A stretch of 64,000 nucleotides of DNA from Oceanisphaera avium (GTDB taxonomy: Bacteria; Pseudomonadota; Gammaproteobacteria; Enterobacterales; Aeromonadaceae), in NCBI RefSeq assembly GCF_002157875.1, contig NZ_CP021376.1, forward strand, positions 1,729,501-1,793,500, written 5' to 3'. The notes below the pieces were generated by a model. It saw only the letters and a program-made list of their open reading frames with translations. It was not told where the DNA came from and did no database searches. The position numbers and the translations under genes were made by a program. Below are positions 4,467 to 45,750 of this stretch, piece after piece (position 1 is the stretch's first letter; each line of letters starts with the position of its first letter).

Positions 4467-5045
4467 TCAACCCTGAAGTAACGGCTGGACTCGCTTATCG
4501 ATAGCTTCTCGTGCTCGAAAAATTCGAGAGCGAACTGTTCCTACTGGGCAGTCCATCACGTTGGCTATGTCTTCGTAGCTCATCCCTTCCAACTCTCGCA
4601 AGGTTATCGCCGTTTTAAGATCTTCAGGCAGTGCGTTAATAGTGTCAAATACTGCCTGCTTAATCTCTTCTGATAGCATGAGTCGCTCAGGTGAAGCTTG
4701 ATCTCTTAAGCCATTACCACCGTCGTAATACTCTGCGTCGTCTACTTCAACATCGCTACTAGGTGGCCGTCTTTTTTGTGCCACTAAGTAATTTTTCGCC
4801 GTGTTTACCGCAATGCGATACAACCAAGTATAAAAAGCGCTATCGCCTCTAAATCCGGGTAAGGCGCGATAGGCTTTAATAAAGGCTTCTTGCGTCACAT
4901 CCGGCACATCACCTGAGTTGGACACATATCGTGAGACTAGGTTCGCTACTTTATGCTGATATTTTTTTACCAGTAAGCCGTAAGCGTTTTTATCACCACG
5001 CTGCACCCGTTCAACCAGCTGCTGATCTGTGAATTGATCGCTCAT
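4467..5045 (-). CDS. rpoE: Extracytoplasmic stress sigma factor RpoE (sigma-E)
   Basis: Sigma-E directs RNA polymerase to envelope-stress promoters (GAACTT, about 16 bases, TCTGA-like). 192 residues from ATG 5045 (MSDQFTDQQ), one longer than E. coli; the open frame extends 14 codons upstream but lacks similarity. Seen: region 2 with DVTQEAFIKAYRAL and the FYTWLYRIAVNTAKNYL stretch, and region 4 helix-turn-helix YEDIANVMDCPVGTVRSR. It heads rpoE-rseA-rseB-rseC and is divergent from nadB, as in E. coli. A sigma-E-like promoter upstream suggests autoregulation. Confidence 0.97.
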   Translation of the reverse strand: MSDQFTDQQLVERVQRGDKNAYGLLVKKYQHKVANLVSRYVSNSGDVPDVTQEAFIKAYRALPGFRGDSAFYTWLYRIAVNTAKNYLVAQKRRPPSSDVEVDDAEYYDGGNGLRDQASPERLMLSEEIKQAVFDTINALPEDLKTAITLRELEGMSYEDIANVMDCPVGTVRSRIFRAREAIDKRVQPLLQG

Positions 5046-45229: not shown

Positions 45230-45281
45230 GCACAAAAAATTAACTATGCTTAAAGGCCGCTACTTACTATGACGAGCGCCC

Positions 45282-45434
45282 ATGAGAGCATCTTATTTAG
45301 CCCAGTCACCGCACAACTCGCGACGCCGCTTAGTGCGGCGCCAAACGATGGATCGCCGCGACTTGCTTAGAGGTGAGCCTCCTTACCAAGCCAGTCGGCG
45401 CCAGCTTGCCCGACGAGTGAATGATACTTTGTAG
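45282..45434 (+). CDS. Possible Arg-rich small protein (50 aa)
   Basis: A 51-codon ATG frame in the gap after srmB. The product would be very basic and soluble (SRRRLVRRQTMDRRDLLRG, then SRRQLARRV), like a small RNA- or ribosome-binding protein. There is no good ribosome site and no recognised family, so this may be chance. Confidence 0.3.
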   Translation: MRASYLAQSPHNSRRRLVRRQTMDRRDLLRGEPPYQASRRQLARRVNDTL

Positions 45435-45477
45435 CTAATACACTTTTATATTGGGAAGTAGCTTGGGAGAGCGCCAT

Positions 45478-45545
45478 AAAAAAACCGGCCCATAAGAGCC
45501 GGTCAAAAATGCAAATGAAGAAGAAGTATAACAATCAGTAAGCAC
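45478..45545 (-). ncRNA. Candidate small RNA, copy B of a tandem pair
   Basis: Proposed RNA of about 68 nt on the minus strand: predicted 5' end near 45545 (GTGCTTACTGA...), a UC-rich single-stranded middle, then a terminator with stem ACCGGC/GCCGGT (45484-45489, 45498-45503) and seven U. The 5' eleven bases, the middle UCUUCAUU and the terminator are shared with copy A, 172 bases upstream. U-rich flanks with a terminal stem suit Hfq binding. No ribosome site is seen. Not a known RNA family that I recognise. Could also be a 3'-UTR fragment of yaaA mRNA. Confidence 0.5.
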
Positions 45546-45550
45546 ATAAC

Positions 45551-45578
45551 ATCAGAGCCTAGCCCTTGGCAAAGGTTC
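45551..45578 (-). promoter_or_regulatory. Sigma-E-like promoter of small RNA copy B
   Basis: GAACCT (45578-45573), 16-base spacer, TCTGAT (45556-45551) on the minus strand; an A/T-rich stretch lies just upstream. The -10 is consensus, the -35 differs at one base. Confidence 0.45.
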
Positions 45579-45648
45579 CAGATTTTTTTAAATTATTTTA
45601 TAAATTCCTGTAAATAATGGCCGAAGAGCAAGACGAGCGCTTGGCCAT

Positions 45649-45717
45649 AAAAAAACCGGCCCAGAGGGGCCGGTTAAAACAGAAAATGAAGAGAGAGTAT
45701 TCAAATTCAGTAAGCAC
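45649..45717 (-). ncRNA. Candidate small RNA, copy A of a tandem pair
   Basis: Proposed RNA of about 69 nt on the minus strand starting near 45717 with the same GTGCTTACTGA head as copy B, a UC-rich centre, and a terminator stem AACCGGCC/GGCCGGTT (45654-45661, 45668-45675) with seven U. Compared with B, the spacer and centre differ at many positions while head, promoter elements and terminator are kept, the pattern expected of a duplicated, still-selected RNA. It lies 99 bases after the yaaA stop on the same strand. Confidence 0.5.
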
Positions 45718-45722
45718 ACTAG

Positions 45723-45750
45723 TTATGAGCCAAGCTGTAGCAAAAGGTTC
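45723..45750 (-). promoter_or_regulatory. Sigma-E-like promoter of small RNA copy A
   Basis: GAACCT (45750-45745), 16-base spacer, TCATAA (45728-45723) on the minus strand, with the same A/T-rich upstream stretch as copy B. Both -35 and -10 are off consensus at one or two bases. Confidence 0.4.

Follow-up and report, generated by a model that had tools for sequence, protein, structure and literature searches.

Two tandem candidate small RNAs with a sigma-E-type promoter and a porin-complementary 5' head downstream of yaaA in Oceanisphaera avium

The gap between yaaA and srmB in Oceanisphaera avium probably holds two tandem genes for trans-acting small RNAs (sRNAs) of the RpoE envelope-stress response, which would belong to a new sigma-E-type family of porin-repressing sRNAs. 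We assign this reading a probability of roughly 0.75. The window, i.e. the whole stretch of 64,000 nucleotides that was analysed, contains the two units on the minus strand, and their relatives in other genomes were compared for promoter, head, terminator, neighbouring genes and complementarity to mRNA leaders.

The flanking genes were named by NCBIfam matches above cut-off: yaaA (NF002541; 45816..46595, minus strand), which lies upstream of the units and has unit 1 in its 3' region, and its convergent neighbour srmB (NF008394; 43826..45190, plus strand, start approximate). Direct reading of the gap agrees with the first-pass annotation, which had described two minus-strand units with their heads 172 bases apart, each composed of GAACCT, a 16-base spacer, a TCATAA or TCTGAT element and an identical 11-base head, GTGCTTACTGA, followed by a UC-rich middle and a GC-rich terminator with seven U. 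In unit 1, the -35 element GAACCT (45745..45750) is followed by the -10 element TCATAA (45723..45728), five bases ahead of the head, which begins at 45717; with its start placed there, the putative RNA of about 69 nt would cover 45649..45717, ending at about 45649. The corresponding elements of unit 2, read directly and from the alignment like those of unit 1, are GAACCT (45573..45578) and TCTGAT (45551..45556), and its RNA of about 68 nt would cover 45478..45545, ending at about 45478; all of these lie on the minus strand. Elsewhere in the genome the head occurs once more, within a coding sequence. Between the end of srmB and unit 2, about 250 bases (45230-45477) carry GC-rich sequence that looks by eye like inverted repeats. 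A leader of the downstream gene was considered for the units and rejected because srmB is convergent.

In both units the UC-rich middle runs into an ACCGG..CCGGT hairpin followed by seven T, and the terminator stem-loops at 45654..45675 (unit 1) and 45483..45504 (unit 2), both on the minus strand, were identified by terminator scan, fold and helix covariation. The scan of 651 bases returned these two hairpins and a weak one within the unit-2 promoter, three in total against a mean of 0.9 in shuffled sequences, and the fold z-scores of the two units are -4.6 and -4.3. The hairpin and the T-run are present in 30 of 30 aligned units, as is characteristic of short RNAs with a Rho-independent terminator and a U-run. 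Covariation in the helix is modest: 97.0% of cells are paired versus 94.5% in shuffles, and three pairs have changed on both sides, a number matched by 31 of 500 shuffles, with five of the nine pairs invariant. The head is predicted to be largely unpaired, with a mean of 0.74 and values of 0.6 or more in 24 of the 30 units, and four of the six units in which it is less than 60% unpaired are second copies.

Conservation was evaluated with a covariance model, R1, built from 13 units with the promoter left out. This kind of search in relatives had been proposed in the first-pass annotation, and it located 30 units, each following yaaA, in 22 of the 23 genomes of the GTDB genus, which comprises Oceanisphaera, Oceanimonas and Zobellella; in the remaining genome (G009) the yaaA match is followed by only 4 nt of contig. 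srmB lies on the far side of the units in 20 of the 22 loci and beyond the stretch examined in the other two. A simpler pattern of head plus terminator was found in 10 of 41 genomes, and its reversed control in none of 41. Over 75 genomes of the family (E<=0.01), R1 matched 36, namely the 22 of the same genus and 14 of the sister genus g4, which we take to be Aeromonas; the latter matches are weak (E 0.0012-0.0085), and the eight inspected show neither head nor promoter. Three weak hits away from yaaA (in G010, G002 and G013) are without the promoter and were not counted. A second model, R2, gave eight matches over 295 genomes of the order, all in the same genus, under strict filters by which weak matches are lost. 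Among public genome contigs, promoter plus head was found in 82 stretches, 80 of which were examined as loci; 15 of them, on 14 contigs from Oceanisphaera, Oceanimonas, Zobellella and an 'Aeromonadales bacterium', match R1 at E<1e-4, and the remaining 65 do not (best E 0.13).

Most genomes of the genus carry one copy of the sRNA, most of the Oceanisphaera-type ones two. One unit is present in 14 genomes and two in G000, G005, G011, G012, G015, G016, G019 and G022. The head occurs as GUGCUU in ten genomes, including that of O. avium, and eight of the ten carry doubled units; it occurs as GUGUCU in 12 genomes, and two units begin with A. In a tree of the units, the second units of G000, G005, G015 and G022 compose one clade (99/96), so that this duplication is older than these species; the remaining branches are unresolved.

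The promoter motif by itself is within chance in the window, where three matches compare with a mean of 1.55 in shuffles and 21 of 100 shuffles contain as many. Its conservation raises it above chance, because R1 was built without the promoter and yet all 30 units that it finds carry GAACYT, 31-34 nt upstream of the head. The aligned units were cut out by an expression that requires GAACYT and the head, and all 30 R1 hits at the locus passed it. Invariant in the alignment are GAAC, the TT two bases further along and a single T in the -10 element; as the first-pass annotation had proposed from the two copies, promoter elements, head and terminator are kept while the spacers vary.

The sigma-E promoter consensus is of the type GGAACTT-N15/16-TCTRA. 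The same window encodes rpoE (about 4476-5045, minus strand), preceded by GAACTT-N16-TCAATA at about 5137-5110. RpoE scored above cut-off in all nine genomes searched (seven of the same genus and two of g4), and in each of them GAACTT-N16-TC stands 92-99 nt upstream of the RpoE profile match. The likeness of this site to the GAACCT-N16-TC of the units supports a sigma-E-type promoter, consistent with what the first-pass annotation had seen in the two copies. We consider sigma-E control well supported by sequence, albeit not proven.

The first-pass annotation had further suggested that the fixed head is the seed and that outer-membrane protein leaders be searched for complementarity to it. The leader of the main porin (PF13609) appears to bear this out. 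The porin is encoded in 22 of the 23 genomes of the genus (one search gave 8 of 9 and another 14 of 15; G012, covered by both, has none), and the site CAGTAGGCA lies in the leader, just upstream of the ATG, in all 22. The leader reads ..ACTTTAGTG or ACTTAGTG..TTAA..ACAGTAGGCA..ATGAAAAA.., and the block TTAGTG..TTAA..ACAGTAGGCA is near-identical between the genus and g4 (L073-L080, L261-L274, L083-L085, L096). In all 21 genomes with both the sRNA and the porin, the predicted pairing between the head and CAGTAGGCA is unbroken over 9 to 11 bp. It starts at nt 1 in 16 genomes (reaching nt 11 in one) or at nt 2 in five and runs through nt 10; in four of the nt 2 starters (G002, G003, G006, G010) the longest run is another one of 10 bp, formed by nt 6-15. 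The GCUU and GUCU forms of the head differ solely at pyrimidines facing G, so that both forms can pair with the porin site. The seeds in the window, nt 1-10 of each RNA, occupy 45708..45717 in unit 1, complementary to CAGTAGGCAT of the porin leader, and 45536..45545 in unit 2, which is identical (minus strand).

How exceptional this match is depends on the score. The background consisted of 325 gene starts, collected by a simple script from the window plus 300 kb of the O. avium genome and applied to all genomes. By contiguous stem, a score devised after the energy test, 0-2 of the 325 starts fit as well as the porin in seven genomes. A first small background had given 0-2 of 51 starts as good. 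By energy over nt 1-22, no start is as good for unit 1 of G000, G005 and G011 and unit 2 of G011, whereas 3 are for G001, 8 for G021, 8 for unit 2 of G000, 16 for unit 2 of G005, 39 each for G002 and G006, and 40 for G014. With the whole 5' part, 0 to 59 of the 325 are as good (37-59 for Oceanimonas-type units), and with the head alone 5. The porin is therefore not exceptional by energy for Oceanimonas-type units and several others. Random 11-mers reach the observed run in 44-73 of 20000 trials for four leaders with 10 bp and in 223 of 20000 for G002 with 9 bp; permuted heads do so in 56-99 and 269 of 20000, respectively. The pattern CAGTARGCAY has 15 sites in the O. avium genome versus 8 for the reversed pattern; two are the units, and among the other 13 only that of the porin directly precedes a gene start, as we read the frames. 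One of the 13, a CAGTAAGCAT site in L113 (around 1500), is 89 nt upstream of a frame that we take to be aldo/keto-reductase-like. The porin site itself is just 36% unpaired in the predicted fold of its own leader. Taken by pairing, a conserved seed complementary to the translation start of an outer-membrane protein mRNA is predicted in 21 of 21 genomes, with energy being less clear.

The weaker second porins (L081, L082, L275-L277) share no consistent site, and for L275 and L277 no start was found. In L081, a second porin-like gene of G006, CGGTAGACA stands before the start and is complementary over 9 bp to the GUGUCUACUG head form; a site of this type is absent ahead of the porin-like gene of G004 (L276).

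In unit 1 a second block, RNA nt 14-22 (45696..45704, minus strand), is complementary to GTGTTTAA of the porin leader, and it is with this block included that none of the 325 starts matches the porin. Unit 2 has a UC box, TCTTCTTCATTTG (45512..45524, minus strand), complementary over 13 bp to the ompA leader, ..AAATGAGGAAGAC..ATG. By contiguous stem, the ompA match is 13 bp for unit 2 of G000 (1 of 325 starts as good), 12 bp for unit 2 of G005 (2) and 14 bp for G001 (0); it falls to 8 bp for unit 1 of G011 (4), 10 bp for unit 1 of G005 (8), 9 bp for unit 1 of G000 (19), 9 bp for G021 (27) and 8 bp for unit 2 of G011 (93), and is unremarkable for the Oceanimonas-type G002 (73) and G014 (136). 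By energy ompA is ordinary and the match not significant, with 72 and 31 of 325 starts as good for units 1 and 2 of G000 (middle part). UC-rich RNA is complementary to many ribosome-binding sites, and we adopted the stem score only once the energy test had been run; for these reasons we treat ompA as a lead only: the UC box of unit 2 may tentatively fit the ompA ribosome-binding site, more weakly than the head fits the porin.

Several other readings were weighed. The first-pass annotation had allowed that the units may be 3'-UTR products of yaaA, i.e. that they are mainly parts of the yaaA mRNA, processed from read-through, with incidental motifs upstream. It is true that the scan of 651 bases in the window found no terminator between the yaaA stop and unit 1, so that read-through would share the terminator of the unit, and that in the 12 genomes with the GUCU form the yaaA match and the -35 element are just 20-29 nt apart. 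GAACYT nevertheless precedes all 30 units although the spacers drift, and it is retained by the second units as well, which lie some 150-610 bases beyond the first; this argues against a pure processing product, which needs no promoter, and we judge that reading distinctly improbable. The earlier proposal is half right: yaaA read-through would stop at the terminator of the unit, yet each unit retains a promoter as well, as in 3'-UTR sRNAs that have their own promoter. In 22 genomes the yaaA match is followed by the first-unit -35 element at a distance of 20-160 nt. A leaderless micro-ORF (GUG-Leu/Ser-Thr-Glu-Phe...) in place of an sRNA is scarcely credible and was rejected. A GTG frame does open at the head, with lengths of 36 and 39 aa in the two units of the window, and both units with an altered first nucleotide have ATG; however, the frame measures anything from 5 to 112 codons over the 30 units, with frameshifts in the middle, and codon 2 varies at its first two positions.

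A more serious alternative, which we still regard as unlikely, is that the units are real sRNAs but respond to another ECF sigma factor or act on other mRNAs, the porin match having arisen by chance. The O. avium genome does contain a second, weaker RpoE-like frame, under the family cut-off, and as many as 5 of the 325 background gene starts equal the porin in their fit to the head. Moreover, the porin leader site CAGTAGGCA is equally present in four of four g4 genomes (L083, L084, L085, L096) and in G026 (g5), in which R1 finds no match to the sRNA. The sRNA alone therefore does not explain the conservation of the site, which is older than the R1-type sRNA or maintained by more than it; the near-unchanged leader block suggests a shared regulatory hub. 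Against these points, the site ahead of rpoE has matching spacing and -10 element in all nine genomes, and the fit to the porin begins at nt 1-2, is located immediately upstream of the start codon and holds in 21 of 21 genomes despite the change between GCUU and GUCU.

In g4 the place immediately behind yaaA is taken by another RNA gene. In seven of seven loci read (within L040-L046) it combines a sigma-E-like promoter, which in L040 is GAACCA-N17-TCTGA, with a GAATCCTCTGTTGTAAGCACT body and a terminator; in L042 it is seen from about 2290. It has no Rfam match up to E 1 in L040, L042 and L045. Compared with 245 gene starts of G034, the RNAs of four genomes leave 0, 0, 0 and 47 starts as good as the best porin leader, 2, 2, 46 and 122 for a second porin and 16, 74, 84 and 88 for the orthologue of the main porin; for six ompA-like genes of G034 the numbers are 0, 9, 72, 89, 106 and 225. 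R2 was run with filters off on three loci and gives 18-27 bits at the syntenic position, perhaps owing to the terminator; the g4 RNA may be a diverged homologue or a replacement of the R1-type sRNA. It is conceivable, at rather less than even odds, that sigma-E porin-repressing RNAs occupy the yaaA-srmB gap throughout this family as a constant address while their sequence turns over, a different RNA in g4 fitting other porin leaders, and that the Oceanisphaera-type copies divide targets, unit 1 serving the main porin through two blocks and unit 2 ompA through 12-13 bp over the ribosome-binding site.

The first-pass annotation had recognised no known sRNA in the units, and the searches concur: no Rfam family matched the window at gathering score, and a search of seven loci that allowed E values up to 1 returned only SorX, MicX and anti-hemB, all far under gathering, with no RybB, MicA or VrrA. 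In E. coli and Salmonella, RybB has its seed at the extreme 5' end. It is described as a sigma-E-dependent short sRNA that lowers omp mRNAs (PMC1804206). Compared with the E. coli genes (letters from NC_000913.3), the longest stretch common to the first 30 nt of RybB and the first 25 nt of three units is 5 nt, nt 1-22 of RybB do not favour the porin leader of the units (85 of 325 starts as good), and R2 gives RybB 7 bits (E 3.1), so that homology is not indicated. MicA is an E. coli sigma-E sRNA that acts on ompA. PMC3551931 likewise mentions ompA. The micA gene lies between luxS and gshA, unlike the units after yaaA; MicA does not fit the porin leader (303 of 325 starts as good), and its R2 score of 7.9 bits (E 2.2) covers only the terminator half (positions 34-70), again giving no indication of homology. 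By these tests the sRNA would work like RybB, yet it is not RybB, MicA or a member of a matching Rfam family.

VrrA and MicV of Vibrio cholerae are not known to be adjacent copies. They are reported as two sigma-E sRNAs with a common seed that both target OmpA and OmpT (PMC7602753). Apart from the Rfam result for VrrA on the seven loci, they were compared with the units by description only. OmrA and OmrB are adjacent duplicated sRNA genes that act on outer-membrane protein mRNAs. Like the units, they are tandem with a fixed 5' end and a diverging middle, and by description they are set apart as OmpR-driven, with another sequence and locus. MicL is transcribed from a sigma-E promoter located towards the 3' end of the protein gene cutC, shares its terminator with that gene and targets lpp; the units resemble it in the position of the promoter, and by description differ in host gene and target.

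On the reading that we prefer, a sigma-E-type porin-repressing sRNA family, we infer the following course from the sequences. Under envelope stress, transcription by RpoE would begin with the G of GTGCTTACTGA (at 45717 and 45545), and an RNA of about 69 nt would end at its own terminator, the U-rich flank and the U7 tail presumably binding Hfq. Its nt 1-10 would pair with CAGUAGGCA, which precedes the AUG of the main porin by a few to 19 nt, block ribosome entry and thereby lower the amount of porin made. In unit 1 the second block would lengthen this pairing; unit 2 keeps the porin head, and since its UC box may fit the ompA ribosome-binding site, the copies may split the work.

Searches of one literature library combining the genus names (Oceanisphaera, Oceanimonas, Zobellella) with 'sRNA', which abbreviated names would escape, returned no sRNA paper on these genera, and none was found for yaaA, srmB and sRNA together; the family is apparently undescribed so far. 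The present analysis gives these three genera an sRNA family for which both seed and target are predicted. Less usual are the divergence between the two copies and the possible turnover of RNAs at a single address. With single and doubled states, two seed forms and a different g4 RNA in the same place, the family would be a tractable case for studying how the targets of a stress sRNA are retained, acquired and shared out once its gene has duplicated.
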